From NCBI RefSeq assembly GCF_020360975.1, contig NW_025408671.1, positions 3,596,001 through 3,660,000 of the forward strand: DNA of 64,000 bases. Direction: 5' to 3'. This document shows, piece after piece, positions 15,632 to 59,715 of this stretch (its first letter is position 1; the number at the start of each line of letters is the position of its first letter). The position numbers and the translations under genes are program-made. The DNA comes from Hirsutella rhossiliensis (Eukaryota; Ascomycota; Sordariomycetes; Hypocreales; Ophiocordycipitaceae). The notes beneath the pieces were generated by a model. The model saw only the letters and a list, made by a program, of their open reading frames with translations. It searched no databases and had not been told where the DNA came from.

Positions 15632-16259
15632 TAATGCCCTCCCTTAAGCGTAGCGCGGCGTTACTTAATTAATAGCTTTTATACTATTAGGCCTATACCG
15701 CTAGCTTTACCTTACCCTTTCCTATTAATCGTATAGGCCCTACTAGCCCTATTATCCCCGCGCCCGTTAGCCTAGGTAGCCGGAACCGGGCTCTATACTT
15801 ATCGGCCGGCTAGCTGTTTAAATAGGGGCGCGACCTATTATATACGCCCCTAGGTAGCTAGCGGCCGGCCCGGACCTACGTAAGCCTTAGGTTGCCCGTC
15901 CCCTCGGCCTTAGGTAGCCTCCTTTACCTAGGGGTATATAAGGCGGCATCCCCCCCTTCCTTTATCCTTTCCTTCTCCTCCTTCTTTAACTATAGTAGTA
16001 GTAGTAATAAGTAAGTTCCGCTTTACCTAGGGTATTAGTTTATTCCTAGCTATATAGGCCGCTTTATTAACGTATACATATAGTAGTAGCCGTAGTAGTA
16101 ATAATAGCCCTAATAATAATAACTTTAGCTAGTAAGTTCTCCGCCCTATAGAGCGGGAGGCTATAATCTATAATACTAACTTCTACGATAGATATACCTA
16201 CCTCCCCCTCCCTTACTTCCTCCTTCTTAGAGCGTATAAAGTCGTTCGTCGACGCTATA
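15632..16259 (+). pseudogene. G2 antisense passenger ORF, N-terminal part
   Basis: The region between the G2 3' LTR and the G1 insertion. The first about 300 bp look like leader, with a pyrimidine-rich stretch at 15948-15990. From about 16080 the plus strand is rich in Gln codons (now TAG/TAA), and from about 16190 it reads SLTSSFLERIKSFVDA up to the G1 insertion. Skipping G1 and one copy of its target duplication, the frame goes on as VLGTADD at 31489. It is opposite in strand to G2 gag-pol. No known domain is recognised. The exact start is not determined. Confidence 0.6.
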
Positions 16260-16709
16260 TATAACGACCGGTATTATTCCTAAGGGATAAACCTATTAAG
16301 GGGTTTATATTAATAGATATAATAGGGCGTGGTCTAAGTAATAATAAGTATATTACGTTAGTAATAAGTTAGAGGTTATAGACTATAGACTATAACTAGG
16401 TAATTAGAATTAAAGATAGAATCGTAATAAAGATCTATATTAAAAGCTAGAGAGCTATCTATTTAAAGGAGTAAAAGTAGGTAGCTATATATACCTATAG
16501 AGACTATCCTTAGATTATAGGCCTAGCTATAATCCTTAATATTAAATTATATAGAGCGTAGTAATCTCGTTAATCCTAGATTACTTAGATCTCTATAATC
16601 CTCTCGATCCTATATTTATTAGATAGTTATGCCGACTATTTATCTATTAGGCCGTATTACGTACTTAACGCAGTCGCCTATTAGCGGCCTAGTAGCCGTA
16701 GTTATAATA
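16260..16709 (-). repeat. G1 copy a 3' LTR
   Basis: This 450-bp LTR is nearly identical in layout to 31037-31486 and 54414-54863. It begins tataacgac and ends gttataata, imperfect inverted ends compatible with TGT...ACA. Confidence 0.88.
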
Positions 16710-16711
16710 TA

Positions 16712-17578
16712 ATATCTCCCCTCCTTTTAGTTTTATCTATAAGACCTACTATAGCTACCTTAGCCGCTATATATAGATATACCCTTATTGCGTTATATAT
16801 AAGTATATCGTTCCTTATCTCTTTATCCTTTTAGGATATACTACTAATAGTATATTTAGTCGTATACTAAAAAATCGTTCTTAAAAAGCCTTTAAGCGCG
16901 CTACTCTTACTAAATATATCGACTTAAGTAGAGATCCTACTAATATACCGTATACTTAATACTTTAAAGTAAAGAAGATAAATTATTAGATAGCCGAAAA
17001 CTCTTCGCGCTATAATAATTATATTGCTAGTAGTCGTCCTTATTATAATAGTATTTTAGTAGCCTCTTCTTATAGGTATCTTTTAATTCTTTCTATACGT
17101 AGTAGCTAACGTATTTCTTTTAGTAACTAAATTATTAGCGGAGTAGTATAAGCTATATTCTAAAGAGAAGGAAGCTAGGGAAGCCTTATTAAAGCTTTAG
17201 GCATAGCTTATAAATCTTTAGTAGTAAATATCTATTGCTATTAATCGTTTAGCTTATATCTAGAAGATTCGGAATTATATAAAGGAAAAGAGTTCTAAGT
17301 TATTTCGTTATAGTATCTAAGAAGTAGATACTAAGGATAGCGTTTTACCTACGCTCGATATATATAAGTATTAGGTAGTAAATAACTTATAATCGTTAGG
17401 CGTTCTTAACGAGGCGAATTAGTCCTTATTTAGTATTAGCGAGGAGTTTATAGGTCTTAGTCCTTTAATCCCTCTTAAACCTTTTAGTAAAATTATTAAA
17501 GTAGAGAGCTATAGTAGGTTAAGTGCTTAAGTAGTTCCTAGGTATTTTCCTCTAGTTTATATCCCTTCTACTTAATAA
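16712..17578 (+). pseudogene. G1 antisense passenger ORF: predicted membrane and coiled-coil protein (copy a)
   Basis: The plus strand, opposite to G1 pol, reads through 289 codons in one frame with only TAA/TAG interruptions. The presumed start is ATA-TCT at 16712, which would be ATG before RIP, overlapping the polypurine tract. The first about 145 residues are very hydrophobic (several likely membrane segments). A charged, Gln-rich coiled coil follows (LLAEQ...EKEAREALLKL, roughly residues 145-200), then an acidic tail with DSVLPTLDI and FSISEEFIGL. Two TAA codons at 17573-17578 may be the true end. The coiled coil plus acidic tail resembles uncharacterised proteins I recall as common in ascomycete genomes; that is from memory, not a search. 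Pol ends just to its right, tail-to-tail. Confidence 0.6.
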
Positions 17579-17639
17579 GGTATTCTTATTACTAACCTTA
17601 TTTTCTTATATCTAGTATTTATTCTACTTTATATTCTTA

Positions 17640-18861
17640 ATTATTATCGACTTTAATTTTTTCCTATAGTTTAGCGTTTTATAGCGCTAGTTCTAATAAT
17701 AAGATATAAAATATTAGGTATATCTATATTATTATTAGTAGCGAAAGTTCGTAGTTAACTTTTAAAATAGGTTTCTTAACCTTAAACGGTCTAAGTTTTT
17801 TAAAATCTAATTTATTACTTAGTCGTTTTATTTTAATATTTCGTTAGATAAGGTAGACTATATCTCCCTCTTAAAAGATTAGTCCTTATAATCTTTTCCG
17901 ATTATAGTAAGTAGATATTCGTTTTCTAATAAATTAAAGTTCTTATTATATTTCTTTATATAATTTTTATAGCTAATCTACTTATAGTATCGCTTATTCT
18001 ACTTATAGTCCTTATTAAGTAACCTTAAATACTTTTAGGTTATATTTATAATTAGCGTATATTAGTAAGAGCTTAGTTATTTCCGTAACTAAGCTATTAT
18101 AAGCTAGTTACGCTATTAGTAGCTATTTAACTTAATCGTTTTATTTATAGCTAATATAGTATCGTAAATATTATTTAAGTATTTAGTTAAGTCGTTCTAT
18201 TTATCTATTTATTTATAAGTAATAAGCTATACTAAGCTTATATTTTATCCTTAATTATACTATAAGAGCTTACTAAAACTTAGCTATAAATATACTTCCT
18301 TTATTAAAGATAATCTTATTTAGTAGTCTATAATTACTAATAATAGTTTATAGGAATATATATACTAGCTCTTTTATATTACTTACTTCCTTATATAGTA
18401 AGAAGTACTTATACTTTATTAGTCTATCGGTAATAACGAATATACTATTATATTTAACGTTAATTATAGGTTCTTTTAATAGTAGTAGCTTTATAATATA
18501 ATTAAAAGCTATTAAATCCTATAGTTTCTCTAGTACTAGTAGTAGTTATAATTCTCTATATAGTTTATATCGTTTAGCTTTACTTTATATATAAAGTTTA
18601 TATTCTTTAATAACTTATCGTACTACTTCCTTAAGCTATAAGAAGTTATATTATCGTTTAATCTATTTTATTATTCTTTAGATTCCTTAGTATCTATATA
18701 TTAGATATTTATATATATCTTATATAACTTTATCTTATAATTTTAGTAGTATCTAGATTTTATTCTTATATATTAAAACTTCCGAATATTCTATATTATA
18801 TCCCTTTAGTACTTTATATTCTTTTATTTATTTTAAGATCTTTTAGTATATTAAGTTATTA
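17640..18861 (-). pseudogene. G1 pol C-terminal part (integrase), copy a
   Basis: This is the minus-strand integrase end. At about 17660-17870 it reads GDIVYLI-RNIKIKRLSNKL followed by DFKKLRPFKVK, the integrase C-terminal GPY/F-type domain of Ty3/gypsy elements, with RIP stops at former Gln/Trp. The integrase core lies to the right, up to the LINE-T insertion at 18862; pol continues at 26241. Confidence 0.8.
18848..18861. repeat. Target-site duplication of LINE-T copy B, left copy
   Basis: The 14-bp sequence atattaagttatta occurs here and at 26227-26240. The empty site is seen in G1 copy b around 57000. Confidence 0.85.
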
Positions 18862-18999
18862 TATTTATATTATATAGAAAAAAAAAACTTCTCGCGAAAC
18901 CGATATACGCTTATAGCGGGTACGTATCGCGACTAAAATACTAACTAATACTAGGAATTAATTTAGTAGTATTAATTACCCTTAGTAATAATACTACGC

Positions 19000-20470: not shown

Positions 20471-20607
20471 CGACCCTACCTATATATAACTAAAAGTACT
20501 ATTTTAGAATATATAAAAGAGATATAAGCTAGCTTAGTTAGCGCTTTACTACTAAGCTAGCTTTAACTTAATAGTACTATAGGAAGTAGAAGCTATACTA
20601 GGAGGCG

Positions 20608-20618
20608 CCCCCCCCCCC
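20608..20618 (+). repeat. Homopolymer run of 11 C
   Basis: A C11 tract lies between ORF1 and ORF2 of LINE-T copy B. The matching place in copy C (about 62932) is a shorter G run on the plus strand. Confidence 0.85.
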
Positions 20619-20649
20619 TTAGAGCAGCGCCCTATAGCCTAGTCTATAA

Positions 20650-26240: not shown

Positions 26241-29200
26241 AGTTATACTTTAAATATTATATTTAGCTATTATTACTAGTAGTTCTTATTTTTATTAATT
26301 TTTAGGAGCTATCCTTTTACTATAAGTGCTCTTATATTATAGTTACTTCGTCGACTAAGTATATTAGCTTAACCGTTTTCTATTCCTTTTTTATAAATTA
26401 TTTTATAGTTAAATTCTAATAAGTATTCGGCCTATTAGATCTATTATCCGTTTAACTATTATATTATTATAAAGTATAAGATATTCTTATAATCTATATA
26501 AACCTTAACTTTATATTTACTTTTAAGAAAGTAGTATCGAAATTCCTTAAAAGCTTAAATAATTATAAGGAATTCTTTATCGTAGATAGGGTAATTAAGT
26601 TCTACGCTATATAGCTTCTTTAAATAGAATATAATTAGTTATAGTTTTCCTTTATTATCTTTTTATCCGATTTATACTCCTAGAGTAAAGTTTAATATAT
26701 TAGTTTTAAGTTCGATTTATCGTTTTAAATTAAAGGTAGTTAAGACTAATTCTTATATAATTATAGTCTTAATATATTTAAAAGCTTCGTTAGCTTTATC
26801 GTCCTATATAAATTCTTTTTCCTTCTTTATTAAGTTATATAGTAATACTACGATCTTTCTAAAATCTTTAATAAATCGTTAGTAGTAATTTATAAATCCT
26901 AGGAAACTTTATATATCCTTAACGTTCTTTAGCTTTAGCTATTCTTTAACTAAGTTAATTTTATCTTATTATATTTATATCTCTCTTAGTAAGATCGTAT
27001 ATCTAAGGAAGTTTACTTCCTATATATAGAACTTACTTTTCTTTAGTTTAACTAGTAACTTTATATTTTAAAGTACGCGGAGTACCTTATAGATATATTC
27101 TTTATATTCTTTTAAGGTATCTAAGAAAATTAAGATATTATCTAGGTATACTACTATAAAGATATCTAAGTATTTGCATAGGATATTATTAATTATCTAT
27201 TAAAAGGTAGCTAGTATATTTATAAGTTTAAATAGTATTACTAGATATTTAAATAGTCCGAATTTTATTTTAAAGGCTATTATTTATTTATATCCCTTTT
27301 TTATATATATTAAGTTATAAGCGCTTTTAAGGTTAAGGGCTATAAACTACTTTTTACTATATAGTCGATCTTATAGTTCCGATATAAGCGGTAATAGTAT
27401 TTATTCTTTTATTATAATATCGTTTAAGCGTTTATAGCTAATAACTAGTTATAGCTTACTATTTTTCTTTAAAATAAATATAACTAGGTAGCTTACTTTA
27501 GATATTAACGTTTATATATATCCCTTTTATAGATTCTCGTCGAGGTAGTCGCGTAGCGTTTATAGTTACTTTTCGTTTAAGTTATAGATTTTATAGAACG
27601 TCGGCGTTATTCTATCCTTAAGATAAATTTCGTAGTCTTATTAGCTATATTTAAGTAACCTTATCTTAAGTTCTTCCTTAAAGAGTTTATTATATTTCTA
27701 GTATTCCTAGGGGATATTCTTTATTCTATCTTATAAGCTTTATTCTTTCTTTTAAGAGCTAGTTTCTCTTAATTTAAGCTCTTTATTAATTTATTTAAGG
27801 TCTTTCCTTAAAGTAGTAATAACTCTTTAAATCTTTATATTATATCCTTTATTCTATTTATATCGGATACTAGGTTATATAGCTATATTAGTTAGTACGT
27901 AGGTCTTATTAATCGATTTTATATCCGCTAGTTCGGTTATTATTTTTATTTATATCGCTAAAGCCTATAATAATTTACTTAAATAGTTACCCCTTTTATC
28001 CTATTTAGTAGCTAAATCATTATAAAATTTTACTTTCTCTTAAATCTATTAGTCCTAGAAACTTATATCTTTGTTTTAATATAGCTAGCTAGTTTTCTAG
28101 TTAATTAGTAGATTACTCTCCTATAGCTATAAAAGCCTTAATATAAGGTTATATTCTTTAATATTTATAATATCGAAGTTAACTTATTTATTATAGCCTT
28201 AGATATTAATATTAAGGTAATTAATCTCTATATTAATAATTCCGTTATTATAGTTAAAGGCCTTTCCTTTAATATTTATAAGTTTATATAGATCTTTCTT
28301 ATATCTTTATATAAGTTAATAACGATTAATAACTTTAAGTAAAACGTTATTACCTATCGCGCTATAGTTTAAAAGTATATATATATAATATCCTACGATT
28401 TAGATATTTAATACTATTTAGTCGCTATAGCTTACTATTACTATATATAGGGTCCTTAGATCTTATTATATTATACTAGTCTATAGCCCTTTTATAGATA
28501 GTATACCTTATTTTTTACTTAGTCCTTATTCGTTTTATTTAGGTATTCTTCTTTAATTTATTATTAATATCGTTTCTTTACGTTTTTATCGTATAGTATT
28601 ATATTAAGGCTTAAGAGACTAATTTCTTATAGCTAATTAAAGATTTCTTATTTCTTAACGCTATATTATTTATATTATACTACTTTATAGTTAATTATAT
28701 ACTATACTTTATAATTCTATTTATTTTTATACTAAAGGTTAAGTTTTCGTTTAGCGTCTTTCTATTTTTTATATAGTATTTCTATATCGATTTTTCCTTA
28801 GTCGAATATAGCTTATAGCCTTTATATATATTACTAATAATCTTTTAGTATACCGTTATATCGTTTATACTATACTTATACTTTTTCGTATTTATAAACT
28901 CTATAGTTTAGGTATATATATTTATTATAATCTTCTTTATTATATTTAATTTATTATATAAGTCTTTAAAAGATTAATAGTTTAGATACCTTAAAGTAAG
29001 TAGCGTTATACTATTCCTTTATTTTAGCGTATTTATAGATTTTATATATCTTTAAAAGATATCTTATTAATAAACTATAATTATCGCGGTATTTAAGTAG
29101 CGTACTATAATTAGGTTTTAATAATATAACTTAGTCGTTTAGGTAGCGTTAATCGATTTTCTAATAGTTTAGTTCTATACTTAGGTAGGGTTTTAAAAGT

Positions 29201-31036: not shown

Positions 31037-31486
31037 TATAACGACTAGTATTATTCCTAAGGGATAAACCTATTAATAGGTTTATATTAGTAAATATAAT
31101 AGGGCGTAGTCTAAGTAATAATAAGTATATTACGTTAGTAATAAGTCGGAGGTCGTAGACTATAGACTATAACTAAGTAATTAGAATTAAAGATAGAATT
31201 ATAATAAAGATCTATATTAAAAGCTAGAGAGCTATCTATTTAAAAGAGTAAAAGTAGGTAGCTATATATACCTATAAAGACTATCTTTAGATTATAGGCC
31301 TAGCTATAATCCCTAACGTTAGATTATATAGAGTATAGTAATCTTATTAATCTTAGATTACTTAGATCTTTATAATCCTCTTAATCTTATATTTATTAAA
31401 TAGTTATACCGACTATTTATCTATTAGGCCGTGTTACGTGCTTAACGCGGTCGCCCGTTAGCGGCCTAGTAGCTATGGTCGTAATA
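31037..31486 (-). repeat. G1 copy a 5' LTR
   Basis: This 450-bp LTR pairs with 16260-16709. Right of it the composition changes sharply to CpG-rich G2 sequence. Confidence 0.88.
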
Positions 31487-32395
31487 CCGTGCTAGGCACG
31501 GCCGACGACGGCTCCGCCGCTGCCGCTGCTCCTGCCCGCGCCCCCGCGACCGCGCCTACCGCCGCCGCCTCTACCTCTACTACGCTAGCTGCCCTTACGT
31601 CGCCCTTCTATATAACGACGCCGTCCCCGCCGCCGGCTATAACGCCCGGCCCCTCTACCCCCGCCTCCGCCTTTACTACCCCTATAAGTCCGCTACCTAG
31701 CGAGCGTAGTAGCTATTTTCCGCTAACTTCTTAAAGTATAAACGCTAAGTATAAGCCGGAGCCGCCTACGCGGCCCCTTATATATAGTGCGCGTTATAGG
31801 AGCTCCCCTACGCCGACTAAGTTAGGCGCTGCCTTATTACTAGTGCGCGCGTGCCGGCCGCGCCTATAAGGCGGCGCCTCCTATCTTACTCGCTATAGCG
31901 TCGGCTTAGAAGGCCGGTACGTATAAGCAGGCACGGGGGGCTACTAAGAAGCGCCTTACCGCCGCCGCCGCCGCCTACCGTAATCTCCGCGCCCTTAAGC
32001 GCTAGGGCCTTATCCCTAAGTAAGTTCCTCTCCTCTAGCTCTTTACTTCGCTACTAACTCTCTTAGTACTAGAAATACTGCCTCCGTCGCCCTATCGGCG
32101 GTCCCTATATGCCCGCCGCCCCCGCCGCTATTACTAGCTAGGCCCCCCCCCGCTCCTAGAGCCCCCGGAGCCGCCGCTACCGCCGACTAGCTCGTAGGCT
32201 TAGAGGGCCGCCTAAGCGCTCTAAAGAGCGCCGCCGCCGCTAATAAGGTAGAGGAGGATAACGAGGATAAAGATAAGAACGACGATAAGGATAAAACGTA
32301 GGTCTAGGTAGTTTAAGGGCTCTACCTTAAAATAAACGCTATTTTTATCTCTACTTATATTATTACGCTCGCGTTATTATAACTACCTACTCCGC
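31487..32395 (+). pseudogene. G2 antisense passenger ORF, main part
   Basis: This is one plus-strand frame across about 300 codons, opposite to G2 gag-pol. The 31489-31734 part is free of stops and begins GTG, which is an internal codon, not a start: the frame comes from 16259 across the G1 insertion. Residues are Ala/Thr/Pro/Ser-rich at first (likely disordered), then basic (RRRRRLP), then a helix-like DQLVGLEGRLSALKS (about 32180-32235) and an acidic Lys/Asp/Glu tail (32245-32300). After 31734 the frame continues through TAA/TAG only. It ends near 32395, where the G2 chromodomain begins on the other strand. CpG is well kept. No known family recognised. Confidence 0.6.
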
Positions 32396-32439: not shown

Positions 32440-35400
32440 ACTAGTTTATTATTCTTATTTACTATTCTAAATAAGGCTTTAAACTTATTAAGGGCTATAG
32501 TTCTTATAAACTTATATATAGGTTCCTATAAAGGGTTAAGATACCTATACTACTTAATAAGGACCTCTTAGCGTTTCCCCTTACCGACCTTTTTCTAGCG
32601 CGCGGCCTATATCTCTTTAACCTTAAACTCGTCCTCTCCCTCTACCTTAATTATAGGCGGTTAAGCGTCCGCTACTTCTTATTTAAGTAGCGGGTTAAAG
32701 GAGGCTCTATAAAGGAGGTCTACGTTAATCTTATTATAGACCCTTATTAAGAGACTATTAAGCTCTATAACCTATAAGCTAATAACCCTTTATACTATAA
32801 ACTTTATATATAGCTAGTTAAGCTTTTTCTTTAGCTATACTAACCTATAGTTACGGAGGTCTAGCTATACTTTATCTCTTACTATAAACCTATCTATTAA
32901 GGCCTTAGTCTTATTAGCGTGCCGCTCTTAATTTTATACTATAGCGGCTATCGCGGATTAATAATAATCTATAGTCTCTTATAGCTTTTATATAAATATA
33001 AAGGCGCGGCCCTCTAGTAATGAATTACTATACTACTCCGCTACTATATTTATAGTAAAAGGAACTAGTAAGGGTAGTTTAAAACTATATATTATAAAGA
33101 AAGGGGCTATCTTAATAGAGGTATATAGTTTACTATTTAATATAAGTTAGGCCGTAAGGAGCTAACGGTCTTAGTTTACTTAGTTATAGGCTATAATAGT
33201 CTATAGGTAAGCCTACGCCTCCTAGTTAACCCTCTTAGGCCCTTTATTAGTTTATAGGTAATATACCGTGCTAAGTAGCTATATAATCTAAAGTAGCTAG
33301 TATAAGTACTATTAAAAGTAGCTAGTTTAATTCGATCCCTTATCGCTTATAATAAAAGCTAGCTAGCTATATAAGCGGGCCTAGTACTATAAGAAGCGCT
33401 CTATATAAGACTCTATATCTATAAATAGTATTAGCTTTAATATTATAGACTTACTAAGTCGGTCCTTAATTACCTATATATAGTAGTTACCGCCCTTTAT
33501 AAGTAAGAGGTCTATTATAAAGTCTATTTATATATATATATAAAACTAGTTAAGTACTAAAAGCTACTTAAGTAGCCCCTTAAGCTACGCCCTCTAAATC
33601 TTAGTATAGCTATAGATATTATAGTTATAGAGGAAGCGGCGAATATAGTACTATAGGAAGGGCTAGTAGAAATCCCTTATAAGGCCTACTACTATGCCCT
33701 ACCTACCTAGGTAGCCTATAATACTAGAGTTATAGACGAGCTAAACTAGCTTCCCTTAGAGCTCGTTCTATTTATCTAGCTCTAGCGGTCTATCTTTCTC
33801 CTTAGCTTCTATAGTATACGGCGCGCCTAGTACCTATAGTCTCCCCCGCTAACGTAGATGCCTTTATAGGTCGATATAATAGTTAGCTACTTATACCTTT
33901 AGCTTTAGCTTTAGATTAAGGCGTCGAGCGCTAGACTTAATAGCACGGCGTATACTCTTATAGGTATAGTCTAGAGATAATATCCTATCCTATAAGCGCT
34001 AGAGGACCTTATCTTAGAATACCTACGCTATATACGCCCTTAGGCCGGTCTATCCCTCCTCGCTAGGCCGAGGTAAAGGTATAAGGGAAGGCTTATTTAT
34101 TAGCGCCGCGCCTTCCTCTACTAAGGAAGCTCTTATATAAGTCTATAGCGCTTCTTATAGGATAAGCTATAGATCTTAGGCCTTAATATCCGCTCTTATT
34201 AGCTGGTCTTAATCCCTTTAAGAAAGCGTATCTAGGACTATAAAGTCTCGCCTTAGTTAGTACTTGATTAAGAAGTTAAAGCGTAAGAGATACTCTACTT
34301 AGCGGGCTTACCGTTCTAAGAGGTATTAGCGGGTTATAAAGTACTTAAGATTCCTATAGTCTATAAGAACCTTAAAGCTCTTATAGCTCTAGAGCTCCGC
34401 TTACTATTACTTAAGGTAGCTAATAATCGCTAGTATCTCTTTATCGTAAATAGCATAATTCCGCTTTACTAGGGTTAGCTTATAAGAGTAGAACGCTATT
34501 AGTTACTTTTACCCGTCTACCTCCTAAGAGAGCGTTCCTTTAAGTGCCTAGCTACTATAGTCCGCTTCGACTAACGTAGACCGGTCGAAGTCCTACTAAA
34601 GTAGTACTAAGGCCCGCGAGAATAGGTCCTTAAGCGTATAGAACGCTCCTTCTTATATAGGCCCTTAATAAAAAGCGGTCTATTTCCTAGTAATCTTATT
34701 TAAGGGACTTATAATATAAGAGAAGCCCTTAATAAATATCTTATAATAGTTCGCGAACCTAAGGAAGCTCTATATACCTATCTATATAGTTAGGGCCGCC
34801 TAGTCCTAGATCGCCTAGATCTTTATAAGATCCGCTTATATACCTACGCTTATATAGATAATAAAGCCTAGGTACTTAACCCTCTTAACCTTAATTTTAT
34901 ACTTATTTAAGTTAAGGTAGAGCTTATAAAGTTAGAGGCGCTTTAGGATCCTCTATACTTTCTATATATAGTCTTTATAGGAGCCGCTTATATAAATAAG
35001 GATATTATCTATATATATAGAGGCGAACTTATTAAGGAAGTCCTATAGTATATTATTAATATAACGCTAGAAGGTAGCTAGCGCTTTTAAGAGGCTAAAG
35101 GGCGTTATAAGCTACTTAAATAAGCTATAGTATATATAAAACGCTGTCTTTTACTTATTACCCTTTAAGATCTATACCTTATAGAACGCTTATTTTATAT
35201 TTAGCTTTATAAACTACTTTACCTTTAAAAGGTTATAAAGCGTATCTAAGATTAAGGGTAAGGGGTAGCGGTCTAGCCTTATAATTACGTTTAGAGCCCT
35301 ATAGTTATAATAGAACTATATCCCGCCCCTTAGTTTATATATAAATAAGACTAGCGCTCTTACTTTAGAGCTACTTACTTAAATAAAACCCTTATCTAGG

Positions 35401-37428: not shown

Positions 37429-37614
37429 TATTACGGAGTAAGTAGAGGTATAAGTATAGGTACTATCTATAGAATAATATTAATAAGCTATATAGAGCTC
37501 TCTTATACGCGGCTAGCCTATATATATATATATAGGATCCGGCCCTTTATATATAACTATATAGCTTAAGCTATAGCCTAAGCCTATAACTTATAATAGT
37601 TAAAGACTCTTATA
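37429..37614 (-). repeat. G2 5' LTR
   Basis: This 186-bp LTR pairs with 15446-15631. It is followed by the target duplication aaatt and then by copia RT codons. Confidence 0.88.
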
Positions 37615-37619
37615 AAATT

Positions 37620-38990: not shown

Positions 38991-39336
38991 GTTTTTAGAT
39001 ATTTCTTATACTTTCTATATCTTTCCTTTACTAGGTTTTTCCTTTTTAGGTTTCCTAGAGAAATATTTACTAGGTTTTTATCTATTAAGATTTTCCTAGT
39101 AATAATAGGTTTTACCTTATATAAGGTTATCCTATAAATAATTATTATAACTATAGATTTTTCCTACTATAGGTTTTCTATTAGTATATACCTAAGGATT
39201 TCTTTTCTAAGAAAGAATAGGTTTTATATATCCTATTAAGGTATAAGAATAGTTTTCCTAAATTAGGTTTTTACCTATATATATACTACTATAAATAAAT
39301 TAGTAAAGAGTATATAAATCTACTCTTTAAGGAGGC
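38991..39336. other. copia 3' non-coding region
   Basis: About 350 bp lie between pol and the 3' LTR. It has repeated aggttttt/cctattaagg-like words and no reading frame. Unlike the gypsy elements here, no antisense gene fits. Confidence 0.5.
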
Positions 39337-39904
39337 TATAAGGAACGGTGTTCCTACTATAAATAAAGTAGCTATAATATACTCTCCTAATTATATAAGC
39401 TAATAAGTAGTATATTAATTATAGATAAAATCTTATCCTATAGAGTAAGAATCGCTCGTTATTTTATATATTATTATGCATTAAACGGGTTGCCGGTTAT
39501 CGTATAATCGGGAATCGAAGGAATAGAGCTAGCTTAGAATATTAGCTAAGACCTCTTAAGAACACCGGCACGACTAACCTCCTTTAAACATAAATATTAG
39601 TAGAACTAAGACACTTCTAGATTTACTCGAGGTATCACGGAACTTCCTAGTCTTAGGGCTATATAGCAGCCTAAATCTAGTCCTAAAAGGTTCTTCCGTT
39701 TAGCTATAATTATCTATAAAAGATAGTATATCTACTAGTAAATAGATATAGAATTATTAACTTTAATACCTCTTCTATATACTAATATACTACTAATAAA
39801 TTCCGTTGAAAATCCTACCTTATACTCCTTCTTCCCCTTTATTACGTAGTCTTACGTAATTCCTTAATTTCCTAAAATTCCGCTTTTACTTATATACCTT
39901 AAGA
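39337..39904 (+). repeat. copia 3' LTR
   Basis: This 568-bp LTR pairs with 11686-12253. The target duplication cttac follows at 39905-39909. Confidence 0.88.
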
Positions 39905-45277: not shown

Positions 45278-45534
45278 TATAAGAGCGCTACTAAGAGGTA
45301 TAAGTTAATAAAGTACTTAGGTATATAGTACTAATATATTAGTAGGGTATTAATAGGGAATCGTACTTACCCTACTTATATATTATAGACCTCTCGCTAC
45401 TTTAACTAAAGAGGAAAAATCCTTCTTCTTATAAGCTTTAGTCTTATAATAAGGAGAATATAATATATATAGCGTAGTACCTCTAGCTATCTCTACTACC
45501 TAACTAATTATACTATAATACGTATTCCCTTATA
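45278..45534 (+). repeat. G3 5' LTR
   Basis: This 257-bp LTR pairs with 52740-52996. It begins tataagagcgc (TGTAAG... before RIP) and ends cccttata. Confidence 0.9.
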
Positions 45535-46450: not shown

Positions 46451-49400
46451 TTATATAAGTCGCTTAACGATATTAAGATACTACTACTAATAAGACGCGA
46501 CGTATTAATACTACTTTTACCTTTAAAGGAACTAGGAATAAAAGTAGTACTATACCTTAAGGCGGTATATATAAGGGAAGGAATTAAAGAGGCCGATAAG
46601 CTAAGCTAAATCGTTAAGGAAATACTATTAATTCGACTAATAACTAGTAAGCTAGCGATATACCTACTAAGGGCCGAACTAAGAGACGTTATTAAGGAAG
46701 AGGATCTTTTACTTAATTAGGAATTATATATTTTTAATATAATAAGCTAGGATACCTATTTATAGAATATACTAATTCTCTAAAGGTAGAAACCCTAGCA
46801 AAGACTCTTAGACTTAATACTATAAAATAGGGAAAAGGTAAGATATTAAGGTAAACGCCTCTCCCTTAGTAAACTTAATACTTATAGGATAGTTACTTAA
46901 AACTCCTATAATAATATTAAGGCGAAACCTTATTAAAGTCCCTATATACTTAAATACTTATAGTACCGTTAACCTTATAAATATATACTTTACTTAATAG
47001 TAAGGATTACTATAAGTAGCGCTATTATACCCTAAGTTATTAAGGCTTAATAATAGTAAGGTAAGGGAGTATAAAGTATAGTTAGTGCCGCTTTAAATAA
47101 TAAATATAAGAGGCACTAAAAAGATAATTACTTATTTCTATATTAGTATTAATAAGTTAACGCTAAACAATTAAGTACTAATCCTTTTATTAGTTACTAC
47201 CTTAGAGGATAAATATATTTATATTATCTTATAGAAACGATAGTAGTAGTTTAAGTATTAACTAGGTAGCGAAACCCTATAAAATCCCTATAAATTCCTT
47301 TAAGAATATAGGAATAAGGTAAGGGTATATATAATAGCGCTTAATTCTAAGCTAATCTTACTACTAAATAAAGATAAAGATAAAGGGATTTTATAGGAAG
47401 AATAAGCTAAAATCCTACTAAATCTTTATTAGTTTAAAGATACTTTCTTAGCTAATAAATCCGATTTATTACTAGCTAGAAAGGGAACGGATTACTTAAT
47501 TAATTTAATCCTTAATATAAAACCTCCTTATAGACTAATTTACCTTTTATCGTAAAAGGAACTCTAAGTATTATATAACTAAATCTAAGACGCGATAAAA
47601 AGGAAAATAATCTAGGAGTTAAAAAGCTTAGCTAAGGCGCTTATCCTTTTTATTCTAAAAAAGGATAGTACCTTATAGCTATATATAGACTACTAAGGAC
47701 TTAACTAGGTTATATAAAAGAATTGGTACCCTTTACCCTTTATTTTAGAGATTATTAACCGTTATTAAGGAGCTAAGTATTTTTCTAAGATTAATATATA
47801 GAATACGTATTAACGCATTTAAATTTAAAAAGGAGATAAATAAAAGACCGCTTTTTAAACGCGTTATAGATATTTTAAATACCTAGTAATACCCTTTAAA
47901 CTTACTAACGTACTAGCTATATTTTAGAGCTATATCTATTAAGCGCTTAAGGAGCTTATAGATATAATCTATATAGTCTACCTCGATAATATCCTTATAT
48001 ACTTTAAGATAAGAAAAGAATATACTAAATACTTAGGATAAGTAATAGAAAGGCTAAGGGCTATAGAGCTCTATATAAAACTATCGAAGTATATCTTTTA
48101 TTAATAGTTAATTAAGTTCCTTAAGTTTATATTATCTATTAATAGGGTATTAATAGACCCTTAATAGGTAAAGGTAATAGCCTAATAGCTTAAACCTATA
48201 ACCTACTATAATATTTAGGTTTTCCTTAGGTTCTATAATTTTTACCAACGATTTATATATAGGTACTTAAGAGTTATAGCGCCCCTAACTATATTACTAA
48301 AAGGGAGTAAGAATAAAAAGAAGCTAGGGAGTATAGAGCTAAACCTTACCGAAAGGGTAGCGTTTTAAGCTCTTAAGGATACTTTTTAAAGAGCCTTACT
48401 CCTTTAATATTATAATCTAGAAAGACGTATTTATATTAAAATAGATATATTATAATTCGTAATAGTAGGGATTATCTCTTAACCTAATAATAAAGAGCGT
48501 TATTATCCGATCGTATTTTAGTTAAGGAAGTTTACTAGAGCCGAACTTAATTATAGTATTTTAAACTAAGAACTCTTTACTATCGTTAAGTTATTTAAAT
48601 ACTAGTAATATTATATTAAAGGGGTAGTATATAAAGTAAAGGTATTATTAAACTACTATAACCTCTAAACGTTTATACGCTAAACCTCCTTAAATAAGAG
48701 GTAAGTAAGATAGTATATATATTTAGTACTATTTAACTTTACGATTAAGCATCGTATAGGTAAATCTAACCTAGCGGACGCGCTATCGAGAATACTTAGA
48801 TATAAAGGTAAGAAGCCCTTATTTATAGAACTATTACTAAAGCTATAAGCGAAACTAGCTACTATTAATACTATATTTATATAAAGAAATAATAATGCGT
48901 TTTTATAAGTAAAGAAACGCTTAACCTTAAGTTAATATAAGTATAGTAAAGTGCCTTTATATAAGGAAAATATATAAGCTTATCTATAGCGAAACTATAA
49001 TAATTTAAGCGCGAGACCTAAATAATTAGCTGATTAAGCTAAAGAGAGAGCTAGTTATAAATAGTTACTCTTAAAGAAGACCGCTAAAAAAGCGGCCTAC
49101 TATATAAAGGTTTATATAGTAGAAGTTCTAGAACCGTTACTAGAGTTACTAAAACGCACTTAGTCGGTTAATATAGCGATTAGTAGGCTAAAAGAGACTA
49201 AAGACTTCTTAAAAGGGAAGGGTTTTTAGTTAGTATACCTAAATAGACTACTATTATAAAAGGGTTATATTATAGTGCCTTTAAAGGTAGCCTTATAATA
49301 AGAGCTAATATAGCTTTTTTATAACGATCTATTAGTAAGATACTTTAGCTCTTAATGTACTAGCGAACTACTAGTAAGGAACTTCTACTAGGATAGAATA

Positions 49401-50760
49401 AGGAAAGATATAAATAAATACGTCTAGTTATACTTAGTATATTAAGGTATAGTATCTAAGAGGCATTGCCCTTATAGTACTATATAATTATTACTATATC
49501 TTATACGACTATAGGAAGAATTATTAAGCCTTTTCTTTCTTATCTCTAAGATAATAATAGCTTTAAAGCTAGTAGAATTATTTTATTACTAAGTTAAATT
49601 AATATATAGACCTCCGAAAGGCATTATCTTAGATAAAGGGTCCCTATTTATAAGTAAGTTTTAGTTAGATCTTTATTTTATCTTATAAGTAAAACATAGG
49701 CTATTAATAGTATTTTACCTATAAACTAATAGGTAAATAGAACGAATAAACTAAGCTATATAGTACTACTTAAGATACTTTACTAACTTAAAATAAACTA
49801 ACTAAGTATTACTCCTATATATTACTTAATTTATATATAATAATATAAAGAACGCGATAACTAGGTTATTACTTAATAAAGCGTTAATAGGTTATTAACT
49901 AAACTTCTATATTAATATTAAGGACGATATTATTTAAAGGGGGGTACCTAAAGTAAGAGTAAGAGTTACTAGGCTATAAAAGCTATGAAAGAGGCTTAAG
50001 GAATACTAGAGAAAGGCTATTAAATCGTAAGCGAAATACTATAATTTAAGGTACTAACCGCTTATACTAAAAGTAAGAGACCTTATAGTATTATTAATAA
50101 AGAATTTACGCCTTAAGGATAAAAAAAGAAAACTCTTACCTAAGTATATTAGACCGTTTTAGGTCCTATAAGCTATTAGAAAGTAAGTATATCGTCTTAT
50201 ACTTCCTAAGAAGTACTTACGCCTTTATAACGTTTTCTATATTAGTCTCTTAGAGCTATAAAAAGAGCGAAAAGGCACTTATAAAGATAGCGAAACCCTC
50301 TTAATACTAAACTTAGAGGATAATAAAGGTAAATAAGAAGTCTAAGAGATTAAAAACTAAAAGAGATCTAAGGGCGATACCTTTTTCCTTATTAAATAAA
50401 AAGGATAGCTAGCTAAGTATAACTAATAGGTCGATACTAAAGATATAGTAAATAGCTAAGACCTTATTAAAGAATATACTACTCGCTTAACTAAGAAAAA
50501 GAAGCGTAAGACTAAGTAAGGTAGGGAAACTTACTAGTATAGGGAGACGCTACCGAATTAGTAATAAGTCCCTATTAAATCGCTACTAACTTATTAATAT
50601 ATTAATACGCCCGAATATCCTATAACTATATATAAAATAGTAAAATAGGAGAATAAGGGAAAAATATTTATACTACTTATTAAATATTATTAAGGAAAAT
50701 AAAACTAAACTATAACTCTACTAAGGCCTTAATAATAAAGGAGAGAAGGATAGTTATAGC
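46451..50760 (+). pseudogene. G3 pol with chromodomain
   Basis: RT motifs: DYQGLNQV and NWYPLPFILEII at about 47685-47760, GAKYFSKINIQN at about 47780-47815 (motif A Asp turned to Asn), and VYLDNILIYF at about 47972-48005 (YLDDILIY expected). Protease lies upstream (about 47000-47300), RNase H and integrase downstream (48300-49950). A chromodomain follows at about 50320-50480: EVEEIKN, GDTFFLIK-KG, where Trp codons of the WKGW-type motif became stops. The C-terminus runs towards 50760, where the opposite-strand ORF ends. Confidence 0.85.
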
Positions 50761-52358
50761 TAAATAAAAGAAAGATAAGACCTATCTATTACTTCTAACT
50801 ACCTTTCTTCTTCGCTAGTATAGTAGGAACTAACTAAGGCGCCCCCTTTACTATACTAAATACCTCTAGAAATACTAGAACTACCCTATCCTTTACTCCT
50901 TCCTTATCTTTTACGTTAAGACCTATCTTTATTAGCATAGCACTTACCTTAGCCTTAGTAAATAGTAAGGCGTATTACTATAAAGTATAGCTTATATCGC
51001 TATTAATAAGGCGGAGTTTTAACTAGGATTCTTAGGCTTAGTACTCTAGGCTTATATAGGCGATATTAAATAAGGGCGCGGGGTTAAGGTAAATAATAAG
51101 CTCGCGGCGCTTATTAATTAGCGTATAGTAGTTAGTATACTCGACCTAGTATATCGTTAGGCGGTCGCTAATAAAAGGGTTAGATAAAACTTACGATAGT
51201 AGACTTTAATATACTTATAGTCCTAAAGGACTTACGATAGGCCGTCTTAGCGGCGTCGAAAGCCTTAGCTAAATACTATACTATAATAGTAAGATAGCGC
51301 TAATTAGCCTCCTTAAAAATAAGCACGCCTACGTCTAAGCTATTATCCTTAGTATCCTCGTTACTAGTCTTTAGCTTATTAAGCTTATATAGGTACTTAA
51401 TAATAGCGACTATATCGGCCCGGTTATTAGATATAAGAGTAGTAGCCTTAAGAAGGATTAGCTTATTAATTATAATATTTAAAGGTAAAGGGAAACTTAC
51501 TTAGTTATAGGTCGCGGTATATTTATAGTACTATTTATAGCGCGTCGAGGAAACCCCTAAGAAAATATAGCTAAACGAGAGTACCTTAATAAGCTTAGGC
51601 TTAGTCGTATTATACTCCTTAATAACTATCCTAAAATAATATATATACTAAAGCTTATAATTAACGACCTTATAAGCCCTAACTAAGCGGGCTTTAGCCT
51701 TAGATTAAGTATACTTTTTTATAGGAGCGCGACTACCTTATACCGCTACCTAGGTACCCTTATCTTTAATACCGCTATTCTTAGGTTCGTCGGTAAGAGG
51801 AGTTAGATCGCGGCTATCTCTATTATTACCGTTATTATTATCTTAGCCCTCGTTCGGCTAGGTATTAAGATAGTCTTAGCCCTTATTTAGCTAAGCCTTA
51901 TTATTAATATTGGCCTACTTATTTTAAGGAGCGGCCTAAGCGATAATCTCCTATTAGCTAGAGCCGCCCTATCGAAATAGAGTAGCTAGGTTATCGGTAC
52001 TTACTTAAGAGCGCCTAAGCACGATCTCTTTACTAGTATTAGTATCGCTAATAGGGGTAATAAACTTATAAGTTTCCTAGCCTATAGAGGTAGGCTTATT
52101 AATAGCCGGAGTTAAGGTATTTAGCGGGGTAATAAAAGTATAACCTTCGTTAATATTAGGTCCTAGACTAAAAGTCTCTTAGGACTAGGATTCCCTTATA
52201 CCTTTCTTAGCTTTCTTTATTAAAGGGGAACTAGCGTTATTATAAGACTTTTAGGCCGATCGCTTATACTTTAAGGGCGAACCTACCGCTACCTACTCCT
52301 ATATATAGCGTAAGAAATTAGCGTTATAGTTCTTTATCTTCTTTAGCGTAAAAGGCAT
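50761..52358 (-). pseudogene. G3 antisense passenger ORF
   Basis: The minus strand, opposite to G3 gag-pol, reads in one frame from an intact ATG (52358-52356) for about 530 codons, interrupted only by TAA/TAG. It begins MPFTLKKIKNYNANFLRY. Residues about 110-215 are Asn/Gln/Asp-rich and look disordered; residues about 230-420 form a helical, Lys/Tyr/Leu-rich domain (VVNYKLQYIYYFRIVIKEYN, later YLAKAFDAAKTAYRKSF). The last about 60 residues include YTSEEERQLEVIDRSYLSF near 50765-50830. I do not recognise the family. It begins about 380 bp inside the 3' LTR and ends where pol ends. Confidence 0.6.
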
Positions 52359-52725
52359 TATTATTAATAAATTATTAATAAAAAGTAATATAAAAAAGTA
52401 TAAGGGATTAATAAAAAAAGATATAAAACTTTATAGTAATTATAAGTAGAAGAGTTAAAGAAGAAAATAAAATAAAAGAAATAGGAGATATATATATACG
52501 CTCTTTATATTATAGTTACGCGGCTAATATATAGGCGATACTATAATAGTTACTTAGCGGTAACCGCTAGTATAATAACTATTAACGTTATAGAGTATAA
52601 ACTAATATATACTTATATAAGCGTATACGCGCGATATATAACTAAAACTACTTTTCTTTTTAACTAAATATATATAGTATAGCGAAAGTAATATATATTA
52701 AAGATATAGCTAAGACGTCTATATA
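52359..52725. other. G3 non-coding region between antisense ORF and polypurine tract
   Basis: About 370 bp upstream of the antisense ATG and before the 3' LTR. It is TA-rich with short inverted words near 52540-52570 (actataatag/ctattatagt-like). No frame. It could hold promoter elements for the antisense ORF, but none can be shown. Confidence 0.4.
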
Positions 52726-52739: not shown

Positions 52740-52996
52740 TATAAGAGCGCTACTAAGAGGTATAGGCTAATAAAGTACTTAGGTACGTAGTACTAATATA
52801 TTAGTAGGGTATTAGTAGGGAATTATACCTACCCTGCTTATATATTATAGACCTCTTACTACTTTAACTAAAAAGAAAAAATCCTTCTTCTTATAAGCTT
52901 TAGTTTTACGATAAGGAGAATATAATATATATAGCGTAGTACCTCTAGCTATCTTTACTACCTAACTAATCGTACTATAATATATATTCCCTTATA
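52740..52996 (+). repeat. G3 3' LTR
   Basis: This 257-bp LTR pairs with 45278-45534; the two differ mainly by transitions. Confidence 0.9.
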
Positions 52997-54413: not shown

Positions 54414-54863
54414 TATAACGACTAGTTTTATTCTTAAGGGATAAACCTATCGAGGGGTTTATATTAGTAGATATAATAAAGCGTAGTCTAAGTAATAATA
54501 TATATATTACGTTAGTAATAAGTCGGAGGTTATAGACTATAGACTATAACTAAGTAATTAAAATTAAAGATAGAATTATAATAAAGATCTATATTAAAAG
54601 CTATTAAGCTATCTATTTAAAGGAGTAAAAGTAAGTAGCTATATATACCTATAGAGACTATCCTTAGATTATAGGCCTAGCTATAATCCCTAATATTAAA
54701 TCGTATAAAGCGTAGTAATCTCGTTAATCTTAGATTACTTAGATTTCTACGATCCCCTTAATCCTATATCTATTAGATAGTCGTACTAACTATTTATCCG
54801 TTAGACTATATTACGTACTTAACGCGGTCGACCGTTAGCGGCCTAGTAGCTATAGTTATAATA
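54414..54863 (-). repeat. G1 copy b 3' LTR
   Basis: This 450-bp LTR matches 16260-16709 and 31037-31486. It was inserted into G4 integrase. Confidence 0.88.
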
Positions 54864-54865
54864 CG

Positions 54866-55729: not shown

Positions 55730-55734
55730 GGTAT

Positions 55735-57307: not shown

Positions 57308-57326
57308 ATTATTATTATTATTATTA
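57308..57326 (-). repeat. AAT-repeat 3' tail of LINE-T copy C
   Basis: About six ATT units lie at the junction between G1 and LINE-T. Shorter forms are present at the same end of copies B and D, so it belongs to the element, not to the target. Confidence 0.75.
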
Positions 57327-58064
57327 AGATTACGCTAAGGACCTAGCTAGAGGTATCTAGAACTTTAATATTAAATAGGAGGGAAAAACTAGAGTGCTTA
57401 AGGGAAAACCCTCCCCTCTTTTAGTATAGGTCCGCCTCGAACGAGGTCGTAGTAGTAGTACATAGGAAATTTACGCCGGCTACCGCGGGCTCCTCCCGCG
57501 AAATCGCATCTCGGCGCGGGCCCTCTTAGGCCATAGCCGCTACTATCCCGAGCGGCCGCGGCCCGGGCTCGCTAGCCCGGGCCTAGGGTTATAGGCAGTA
57601 GTCTCTCTTTAAGGGCCCGACTCGCGGGCGCCTCTATTTACCTTAGCTCCCGCGTCGTAGCCGCGTAGCCGCGGTTACGTCGGCTTATCGGTCTATTAAT
57701 TAGTAAGGCAGGTAATATCCGGTTGCCGGGCCGGGCGCTAGTATAGGTCGCTCCTAGGTAGGGCCGGCTAATCGAAATTCGGTCGGCCGGCTCCGCTAAT
57801 CGTAAATCGGTTCCTATCTAGCTACGCGACTTCCCGATTAGGGGCGCGGCGGCCTATATTTACCCTCTATCTTATAGTTACTAATTACGCGCGCCTAGCT
57901 CGCGCCTATATATACCTGCCCTCCCCCCCTAGTTCTATACGTGCCTCCTTCTATCCCTCTATTATCTATCTCTTTCGTAGGCCTAACTACTACCTTACTT
58001 ACCTCGTTTCTATAACTCTAGGTCTCCTTAATACCGTATCTAGTTCGCTTATCGTCGCGTCGTA
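57327..58064. other. CpG-rich LINE-T 3' region and leader of antisense gene
   Basis: About 740 bp with high G+C and many CpG but few CpA/TpG, including gggcccgactcgcgggcgcc near 57612 and other palindrome-like blocks. No trusted frame. Its place just before the antisense ATG suggests promoter and 5' leader; that is inference. Confidence 0.5.
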
Positions 58065-59715
58065 ATATCTAACTAAGAAGCCGACTTAGGTAGTAGCGGC
58101 TCGCCTCCTCTAAAACCCCCTCCTTATAAGAAAGTCGCTATAGTAGCGGGATCGGAGCGCTCTATCTTATATTTTACGTATATCGGGCGTCTTACTAGTA
58201 AGCTTACCTATAAGTCCTTCGCTAGCTATTAGAACTAGTCTTATATATATTAATCCCGGCTTTATCTTAGGTTGGTCTTACCTCTAGTATTTTTACTAAC
58301 TTTAATAGCTATAAAGGCTAAAGCGTATATCGCTTACGCTAACTCTAACTAGTCTTATTACTAAGTAAGTAACCCCTTCCCGCTATAGTGCTATTTAAGT
58401 TCGGTATTAATCCGAGTTCTAGATTACCTCTAAAGGTAAGGAGGCCGCTAGTGCCCTCTACTAGGTATAGTCCGAGGTCGATAGCCCTTCCCTTATTAAA
58501 GGTTCGGTATAAGAGCGCTTTTATCGTACTACTCTAGAAACTTATATTCGCGCTAGTCGGAAGGCCCTTACCGCTAAGGGCAAGGGCGCGTTAGGTAAGT
58601 CCGCCCCCGGTTTAGCTATAGTCGCTAAGAATATAGAGACGCTTACGTTAGCCTTTACCTATTTTATAGACGATACCTACTATATATATAAGTTCCTAGA
58701 GAAGCACCTAGGTAAGTTTAGCGACGCTATTAAGACCCTAGCTTAAGTCGGGCCTAAGTCGCTCTTAGTCGCCTAGAAGACTCTTATAGCGGTTAACGAT
58801 CTCGCTAACTATTTCTATCCTATTACTAGCGACGGCCTTAATACGGAGGATAGCGGCTTTAATCTTACTAGTCTTACTAAGCCTATTCCGGCCTTAATCC
58901 CCGTCGATAAAAGGAAGGGCAAAGGTAAGGGTAAGGCGGTAGCCGCGTCTAAGGCCCTATCTAAGGCTAAGGCTAAGGTGTCTATGCCCGCGGCCGTCGC
59001 GGAGCTAGCTTAGGAGCTAACCGCGTCTCCCTCTAACGCTAAGCCGTAGCCCGGTAGTTCTCCTAGCACCGAGCCCGCCCTAAAGCGTCCTTATCTTACG
59101 CCGCCTACCGATCCTACTAACGCTCCTAACTTTATCTAGTAGCGTCTTTATAGCTATCGCGGTTTAGTCCTAGCCGAGATTATTACTAGTCTTAACCTCG
59201 ATTAGATCTATAGTTATAGTATAGGCCGTAGCGAACGCCTCTATACCGCCGCTAGTATAGGTCCTGCCTTAGTAGAGACCTTAGTCGTTACTCTATCTTA
59301 TAAGCTAGCCGTCTAGGCTAGCTCCGGTTTAGGTTCGGGGTCGGGTCCGTTCGGTCGTCGTTAGGGTTCTCGTAGTAGTAGTAGTCCCTATACTCCTCGT
59401 AAGCCTTAGGTTACTCCCTCCTATACTCCGCGTACTACCTTAGGGGGGTCTTATCGTTCCCGCTATAATAATAAGGCGGACGTTACTGCTAACGAGCTAG
59501 GCTAAGGTCGTAGTTTAGGGGGGGGCTAGTTATTAGCTCCGTCTTAGTTCGGTTCTAGGTTAGGTCTTATTTAGTTATAGTCTTTTAGTAATAGGTCTTA
59601 TTCTATAGCTATTAAGGTCGGTTCGGTTAGGTTATATTAGTTTTATTTAGTCTATAGTTTAATTAGTAAGGTTTACGCTTAGTCTAAGTCCGGTTTAGTT
59701 AAAGCTATAGTCCTA
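58065..59715 (+). pseudogene. LINE-T antisense passenger gene with a 58-nt intron (copy C)
   Basis: This plus-strand gene is opposite to LINE-T ORF1/ORF2. Exon 1 (58065-58364, 100 codons) starts at ATA, ATG before RIP, and reads ISNQEADLGSSGSPPLKPPP and on. The intron 58365-58422 has GTAAGT, branch-like gtattaat (TACTAAT in copy B) and TAG; both sides are phase 0 and the 58-nt length explains the frame change. Exon 2 runs from 58423 to about 59715: a helical part (AFTYFIDDTYYIYKFLEKHL), a basic tract near residue 260 (KRKGKGKGKAVAA), then Ser/Pro/Gly-rich sequence. Only TAA/TAG interrupt it. The end is uncertain, near the ORF2 end. No known domain recognised, and nothing in it looks like a retroelement enzyme. 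Confidence 0.6.
58365..58422 (+). other. Predicted spliceosomal intron in the LINE-T antisense gene
   Basis: GTAAGT...CTAG, 58 nt, joining two phase-0 exons. The same length and ends occur at 8322-8379 (copy D, plus) and 25124-25181 (copy B, minus). Branch-like sites are gtattaat here, TGCTAAT in D and TACTAAT in B. A length not divisible by three fits the switch of frame. Confidence 0.6.

Follow-up and report, generated by a model that had tools for sequence, protein, structure and literature searches.

In the Boty element of Botrytis, the gene brtn opposes gag-pol in direction and is placed after pol, ahead of the 3' LTR, as published in 2011 (Virology 417:248) and as recounted in the available parts of three later papers (PMC7264820, PMC8365987, PMC4227169), and the accessible text of the last of these describes a chromodomain in the gag-pol of a Boty-like element. 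Plant Retand elements carry antisense TRP28 ORFs, the product of which is thought to bind DNA according to the excerpt available (PMC11963269). Similarly, excerpts of PMC7264820 describe antisense aORFs in Grande (gene23), RIRE2 and PvRetro13 of plants, with a position and orientation like those of the gene reported here for family A, and state that the Grande gene has its own promoter. An antisense promoter and antisense genes of HTLV are mentioned in the parts available of two papers (PMC7264820, PMC11963269). As far as these excerpts go, the function of the antisense genes after pol in plants and in Boty is called unknown in the literature. In the deltaretrovirus HTLV-1, the antisense gene HBZ near the 3' LTR encodes a regulatory bZIP protein, and in human LINE-1 the antisense ORF0 is located at the 5' end.

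Family A, a Gypsy family of Hirsutella rhossiliensis, resembles Boty in that both are Gypsy elements of filamentous ascomycetes with an antisense gene in the interval from pol to the 3' LTR, a likeness to brtn, as described in the excerpts, of position and orientation. The likeness to Grande, RIRE2 and PvRetro13, which are plant elements, is equally one of layout, and Retand belongs to a non-chromovirus plant lineage with a region of 2.9-6.6 kb in the text available (PMC11963269).

Four retroelements of the window and their RIP damage

The window, the whole stretch of 64,000 nt that was analysed, contains a LINE (LINE-T) and three Gypsy elements (G1, G2 and G3), the 3' ends of which lie 0.8-2.4 kb past pol. 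The earlier note had claimed that each of these four families carries, in an extra 3' stretch, a long frame opposing the pol strand. The positions of RVT_1, RT, RNase H and SH3 domains confirm the opposed orientation of the named frames, and the extra stretch is confirmed by the LTRs of the Gypsy elements and by the 3' end of LINE-T.

LINE-T copy 1 occupies 57308..64000 with ORF2 on the minus strand, its 5' part lying beyond the window, and its reverse transcriptase (RVT_1, 60853..61579, minus) was recognised by Pfam with an E-value of 1.6e-21 when stops were read as X. It qualifies as a non-LTR retrotransposon by this reverse transcriptase and by a common 3' end near 57307 shared by copies some of which are 5'-truncated. 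Codon and RY scans track one minus-strand frame for ORF2 from 63400 to about 60400-59800, and the candidate antisense frame, originally 58065-59715, was narrowed to 58451..59500 on the plus strand in the register of 58066.

On the minus strand, G1 is bounded by a 450-bp repeat forming its 3' LTR (16260..16709) and 5' LTR (31037..31486), and the 5-bp target duplication CTATA/CCGTG agrees if RIP transitions are allowed, which confirms that G1 is nested in G2. Its RT and RNase H (26411..27469, minus) match PF00078 (E 3.9e-9), PF17919 (E 4.8e-16) and PF17917 (E 5.6e-13), and at the expected pol end (17514..17867, minus) an integrase SH3 (PF24626, E 1.5e-5) and a chromodomain (PF00385, E 2e-4; 21.7 bits in a RIP-mutated frame, the cut-off being 25.1) were found, both under their curated cut-offs. 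The antisense frame runs over 16712..17530 on the plus strand to a TAA stop at 17528-17530, a position as in the family A gene. G2, also on the minus strand, has its 3' LTR at 15446..15635 and its 5' LTR at 37429..37618 (92.6% identity), with an RNase H at 34278..34592 (PF17917, E 1.6e-15), and no target duplication was recognised at its ends; the frame claimed for it starts at 31489..32395 on the plus strand and resumes at 15636-16259 past the nested G1. The plus-strand element G3 lies between LTRs at 45278..45534 (5') and 52740..52996 (3'), a 257-bp repeat with a target duplication TAGAC/TAAAC that agrees when RIP transitions are allowed, and its RT, RNase H and integrase SH3 (PF00078, PF17919, PF17917, PF24626) are found within 47685..50255, ahead of a claimed antisense gene at 50761..52358 on the minus strand. 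That these frames adjoin pol without lying over it is nearly right, except that the frames of G1 and family A overlap pol tail-to-tail by tens of bases.

The frames are not long open ones. All four cross many stops (LINE-T 33/550, G1 23/289, G2 12/302 and G3 41/532 codons), the RIP mutation of the four elements is so heavy that no ORF of at least 200 aa exists in the window, and in G1 and G3 the named frame is surpassed in openness by another of the six. The LINE-T sequence is saturated by RIP, with observed/expected ratios of 0.07 for CpA and 0.05 for TpG and a single TGA in 6.7 kb. When the count took in, besides stops, the codons that a single RIP step turns into stops (CAA, CAG, TGG), the frame known to encode pol was lowest in only 7/36, 1/16 and 3/10 windows of 100, 200 and 300 codons, respectively. 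The stop-density check suggested beforehand therefore fails on single RIP-saturated copies, where this measure cannot separate a coding frame from the other frames, and it was rejected as coding evidence; by stops in single copies, the named frames are not beyond chance. These counts are what would be expected if DNA depleted of CpA and TpG lets any frame read as a protein, so that the four frames of the window would prove nothing. We consider this somewhat unlikely, given the strong triplet periodicity in the RIP-blind RY code at LINE-T 59500-58600 and G3 51235-52434, the exceptional LINE-T frame among 23 aligned rows (below), and a real gene at the corresponding place in the sister family of G1. 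"Hidden ORFs" read through RIP stops require an un-mutated relative or many copies.

An antisense gene in the sister family of G1

Such a relative is family A, found elsewhere in the genome, outside the window; at the 12 loci compared, its pol shares about 75% nucleotide identity with that of G1 in alignments of up to 1087 bp, and at 10 of these loci the G1 LTR is matched as well, with 70-76% identity, beyond the antisense gene. In L041 the antisense frame is uninterrupted and encodes a product of 168 aa, and six cysteines in the arrangement C-x2-C-x6-C-x9-C-x2-C-x6-C are read in both L041 and L035. These two copies represent two subfamilies with 68% identity across the region, and their comparison gave, for the antisense frame, 0 stops in 185 codons and a dN/dS of 0.267, the lowest of the six frames. 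For the gene only (157 codons) dN/dS amounted to 0.244 (bootstrap 0.115-0.399), a value as low being reached by none of 1000 shuffles, 7 of which were stop-free.

A genome search with the 168-aa product yielded 76 matches, which merged into 35 loci. At 26 of these the gene lies tail-to-tail with a listed pol SH3 match at a spacing of 196-237 bp, with 150 of 1259 candidates scored, and the gene was present at all 18 SH3 matches sharing the top score of 70.6 bits. Seven of the nine unpaired loci are RIP-damaged relatives with 34-64% amino acid identity. These data show that the antisense gene after pol in family A is real, with fixed spacing and purifying selection between two subfamilies. As in brtn-type genes, it is located between pol and the 3' LTR, coded on the opposite strand and present in most copies of the family. 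The antisense gene after pol is thus demonstrated in a family that lies outside the window.

The same data bear on two other explanations. An antisense RNA that pairs with genomic RNA and regulates it, the ORF being incidental, was raised as possible for plant elements in the available part of PMC7264820; this is very improbable, and in family A the dN/dS of the gene and its freedom from stops show the encoded protein to be conserved. Alternatively, unrelated 3' sequences (captured host genes or nested insertions) might have been trapped once per master copy and have travelled with it as functionless cargo, which would fit the outcome of a Pfam profile search of the named frames, with nothing above cut-offs, and the pieces resembling a copia RNase H and a hAT-like element that we noticed by eye in the stretches following families C and E. 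The purifying selection on the family A gene and its constant distance from pol speak against such passengers, which we regard as improbable.

AlphaFold, run on the single sequence, predicted for the conserved protein a helix over residues 43-113 with pLDDT values of 97-98 in blocks 51-110, a long helix of coiled-coil type that follows the cysteine cluster; over residues 1-40, the cysteine part, pLDDT was about 49-57. The cysteine spacing follows the Zn2Cys6 (Gal4-type) pattern of fungal regulators, and the following coiled-coil helix is likewise similar, whereas Pfam Zn_clus is absent among the matches listed up to E 10 for the L041 product. A sequence search of the PDB yielded 11 weak matches, the best of them to a peroxisomal receptor (E 0.0067); we ascribe them to helix-driven chance.

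Antisense frames of G1, G2, G3 and LINE-T

In G1, the TAA stop aligns with the TGA of the L035 antisense gene, and upstream of it RY similarity exceeds that of all 500 shuffles when the final 15-60 codons are taken, a segment that lies in part within the overlap with pol. Because its sisterhood with family A is expressed in a common layout and this aligned stop codon, G1 probably carries a diverged, RIP-destroyed counterpart of the family A gene. A Pfam match to CMV_UL34 in the G1 plus frame (E 4e-4, under cut-off) is probably noise from low complexity and was not counted. That the six-cysteine protein is encoded by all three Gypsy elements of the window, as first supposed, is not supported: no frame significantly matches the family A product, and some tyrosines in G2 (L012) and G1 (L010) that could have been RIPped cysteines are arginine in another copy.

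Composition models, which are useful for periodicity, were calibrated on known genes. The RY test called the strand correctly in 18/18 pol windows and in 2/2 antisense pieces of family A, and the frame in 11/18 and 1/2, respectively, while a scan of codon usage and RY triplets found the correct pol frame in 34/36 windows. A same-strand codon contrast identified the strand in only 45/69 pol windows and miscalls the known antisense gene of family A, and the RY scan is blind to strand once corrected for composition. For these reasons no strand is assigned to LINE-T, G2 or G1.

For G3, one or another antisense frame has the top score in 8 of the 10 windows with starts at 50707-52057, and the RY test places coding on the antisense strand, though outside the named frame. 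No single frame runs through 50761-52358, the best frame changing along its length. The composition tests suggest for G3 an antisense gene of its own that is not confined to a single frame. The frame claimed for G2 has the fewest stops of the six and a low-complexity, Ala/Pro-rich start, and the RY strand test favours the sense strand; an antisense gene of G2 is not supported.

Across 23 aligned rows, the LINE-T antisense frame at 59500-58600 has 4.3% any-copy stops, the lowest of 84 half-overlapping frame-windows. Of 706 candidate genome copies 79 were scored, and each of these contains at least 19 stops. The dN/dS check proposed in the earlier note was rejected for the LINE-T copies, as they stem from a single star-like burst, with only 9 purine/pyrimidine columns that are informative and transversions of 0-0.19% per row, one diverged row having 0.86%. 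In this stretch, too, the RY test comes down on the side of the sense strand, so that LINE-T and G2 could instead have an additional sense-strand ORF past ORF2 or pol, with the open antisense frame as its shadow. The calibration of that test favours this reading; on the other hand, it is probably in part a test of purine content, biased against proteins rich in Pro, Ser and Leu, the codon contrast makes the strand errors given above, and the sense frames +1 and +2 of LINE-T have 10-11% any-copy stops in the same stretch. A sense-strand gene appears rather unlikely to us. The candidate antisense frame of LINE-T is striking by its stops, and its strand is ambiguous between the stop and RY tests.

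A proposed role and its range

We favour, with reasonable though limited confidence, the reading that in the A/G1 lineage of Gypsy elements a short brtn-type coding gene follows pol ahead of the 3' LTR, on the opposite strand and tail-to-tail with pol. Its transcription would run inward and start at a promoter within or next to the 3' LTR, distinct from the promoter of the genomic RNA. The product would be dimeric, would probably bind nucleic acids and might act in trans on transcription of the element or on silencing. Since every genomic RNA contains the gene, the element would keep it. This putative role is modelled on what the available text suggests for the antisense proteins of plant Retand, the principle being known from retroviral antisense genes. 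HBZ and the family A gene are both antisense near a 3' LTR with a coiled-coil-type product, and no homology between them is expected.

The conclusion of the earlier note, that fungal retroelements have here a general way to carry passenger genes, is too strong, because four other Gypsy families lack a match to the antisense gene (none within 1.5 kb past the open pol end, in one copy of each) and because the Boty arrangement has been in print since 2011. The Gypsy gene is a fresh case of an arrangement already described, and the LINE case is new if confirmed. To our knowledge, LINE-T would be the first non-LTR element with a 3' antisense gene; LINE-1 ORF0, in an element that is also non-LTR, lies at the 5' end and not tail-to-tail past ORF2. 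That LTR and non-LTR retrotransposons of one fungus independently gained tail-to-tail 3' antisense genes for nuclear regulators seems unlikely at present; on this reading the G3 gene, with its shifting best frame, may contain introns that persist since in the genomic RNA they have the wrong strand for splicing.

In summary, family A provides a fungal antisense gene with measured purifying selection, present at 35 loci in one genome as young, near-identical copies and mutated older relatives. Its compact product, composed of a cysteine cluster and a coiled coil, together with these young copies makes transcription and DNA-binding directly testable.

Element layout and stop codons in RIP-mutated copies

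The window lies on contig C5 (positions 3596001-3660000) of the 81.8-Mb genome (40 contigs) and is made up of retroelements nested in one another; no ORF of at least 200 aa was found across its whole length. The LINE element LINE-T (minus strand; RVT_1 domain match at 61579-60853) has a 3' end near 57307 that is common to its copies, several of which are 5'-truncated. It is saturated by repeat-induced point mutation (RIP), since nearly no CpA or TpG is left (observed/expected 0.07 and 0.05, respectively) and transitions (5.5-8.6%) far exceed transversions (0-0.19%) in 22 of 23 aligned rows. The remaining row, a third copy (1-3090 and 7272-8442) with 0.86% transversions, probably represents an older subfamily and is of use for dating. 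LINE-T copy 2 lies inside the Gypsy element G1, and G1 inside the Gypsy element G2, with target duplications that match if RIP transitions are allowed. On the minus strand, G1 has 450-bp LTRs (16260-16709 and 31037-31486), RT/RNase H (27469-26411) and, at 17867-17514, matches to SH3 and a chromodomain that fall below their thresholds, and G2 has LTRs at 15446-15635 and 37429-37618 and RNase H at 34592-34278. The Gypsy element G3, on the plus strand, has LTRs at 45278-45534 and 52740-52996 and its pol domains, RT to SH3, at 47685-50255. Just beyond the G2 5' LTR, at 37842-38135 (plus), lies a reverse transcriptase of the copia type (RVT_2, E 1.3e-14), and a 1.6-kb inverted repeat (about 90%) with a 1-kb spacer occupies 9097-10716 and 11683-13310, its inner part recurring at 39336-39904.

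As the earlier note had described, all four elements carry an extra stretch from the end of pol to the 3' end. The opposite-strand frames read there as genes contain stops at 33/550 (LINE-T), 23/289 (G1), 12/302 (G2) and 41/532 (G3). When the stop test, counting stops plus CAA, CAG and TGG, was calibrated on pol, whose frame in these elements is proven, the true frame was lowest in 7 of 36 100-codon, 1 of 16 200-codon and 3 of 10 300-codon windows, which is barely or not above one-in-six chance. A low stop count in single copies was therefore rejected as a sign of coding, and the frames seen in single copies are no evidence of it; the stop-density check proposed earlier is uninformative on such copies.

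An antisense gene in a sister family of G1

When the genome was searched for the integrase SH3 domain (150 of 1,259 candidates scored), the pol end proved to be open in several Gypsy families. Family A, an un-mutated sister of G1, scored highest; 12 of its loci (L035-L046) match the pol of G1 at about 75%, and 10 of the 12 also match its LTR at 70-76%. Locus L041 holds an unbroken 168-codon gene on the opposite strand after pol (locus positions 1883-2386), and with gaps left out the gene region is 98-100% identical in 11 of the 12 copies. Differences among these 11 (L036-L046) are mainly one-base gaps that sit in base runs, as with uncorrected long-read assembly, and that look like assembly errors; any frameshift in a young copy here calls for caution. 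L035 represents a diverged subfamily and shares 68% identity with L041 in the gene region. When both were compared over ungapped blocks only, so that one-base gaps of L035 are without effect on dN/dS, the antisense frame was the only one without a stop (0/185 codons) and had the lowest dN/dS of the six (0.267). The gene alone gave 0.244 (bootstrap 0.115-0.399); no shuffle in 1,000 was as low, and 7 in 1,000 were stop-free. The second-lowest value, 0.41, belonged to a sense frame with 6 stop codons. The pol tail (49 codons) gave 0.092, and with a dN of 0.29 versus 0.035 the gene evolves far faster than the pol tail. Family A settles one case of an antisense gene after pol.

The products of L041 and L035 share a C-x2-C-x6-C-x9-C-x2-C-x6-C motif, which has Gal4-type spacing, ahead of a long predicted helix. 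AlphaFold places the helix at residues 43-113 (pLDDT 97-98 in blocks 51-110) and gives the cysteine part a pLDDT of about 49-57; Zn_clus is absent among the Pfam matches listed for the L041 product. Fungi are rich in unannotated proteins of cysteine-cluster plus helix make-up.

Searching the genome with the 168-aa product gave 76 matches, merged into 35 loci (all 69 first-look candidates scored). At 26 of these the match lies tail-to-tail with an SH3 domain among those listed, 196-237 bp apart, and all 18 SH3 matches at the joint top score (70.6 bits) fall among these 26. Seven of the nine unpaired loci hold 8-16 TAG/TAA stops at 34-64% identity and are RIP-damaged relatives. In one copy each of four other Gypsy families with open pol ends (B, C, F and E; L047-L050), the product had no match in the 1.5 kb past SH3, where the longest antisense open frames span 73, 156, 96 and 125 codons, respectively. 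By eye, the frame in family C lies opposite a copia-like RNase H sense frame (reverse strand) and that in family E resembles hAT transposase; an unrelated short antisense gene in these stretches is possible. As far as sampled, the antisense gene is a feature of one lineage, not of Gypsy elements at large. In the family B copy (reverse strand), a 301-codon open sense frame begins about 140 bp past pol and may be gag from a second, tandem element with a short LTR in common.

The 3' stretches of LINE-T, G3 and G2

In LINE-T, the antisense frame at 59500-58600 had the lowest fraction of codons with a stop in any of the 23 rows (0.043) among 84 half-overlapping frame-windows, compared to 0.077-0.127 for the own frame of ORF2 (63100-59500), and triplet periodicity is strong there. 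The 3' stretch is thus likely to code on one strand or the other. On the strand the tests disagree: against the low stop fraction of the antisense frame, purine/pyrimidine (RY) composition, which is blind to RIP, favours sense, and antisense was best in just 2 of 15 codon-model windows. None of 79 copies scored (of 706 candidates in the genome) was intact.

The codon model, which identified the correct frame in 34 of 36 withheld pol windows, preferred antisense for G3 in 8 of 10 windows starting at 50707-52057 and in 8 of the 15 that cover the 3' stretch as a whole. The RY test also chose the antisense strand in all three pieces tried, but in another frame than that proposed, and a same-strand codon contrast, right on strand in 45 of 69 pol windows, gives no strand decision. 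Since the best frame shifts along the stretch while all 2,141 window bases are paired in a second genomic locus, L014 (90% identical, counted from the window side), one may speculate about introns or about a series of short ORFs. For G2, an antisense gene is unsupported: the frame has the fewest stops, yet it is an Ala/Pro-rich stretch, antisense was best in 2 of 11 codon-model windows (the first windows still within pol) and RY favours sense.

Known antisense genes in retroelements

According to PMC7264820, Grande, RIRE2, Retand and PvRetro13 carry antisense additional ORFs between pol and the 3' LTR, as does Boty, an element of Botrytis cinerea and Sclerotinia sclerotiorum; the paper on brtn, the antisense gene of Boty, appears among citations in PMC8365987 and PMC4227169. 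For Retand, PMC11963269 reports antisense potential coding regions in all clusters studied and proposes a regulatory, DNA-binding role for the product. PMC3248453, which surveys LTR elements across fungi, uses neither 'antisense' nor 'additional ORF' in its main text. Among the titles and abstract openings covered, none pointed to an antisense gene at the 3' end of a non-LTR retroelement. The antisense ORF0 of human L1 lies at the 5' end. An antisense gene after pol is real in one Gypsy lineage, and genes of this kind have been named before. That four families carry one is not established, and of these claims it is the LINE case that would be novel.
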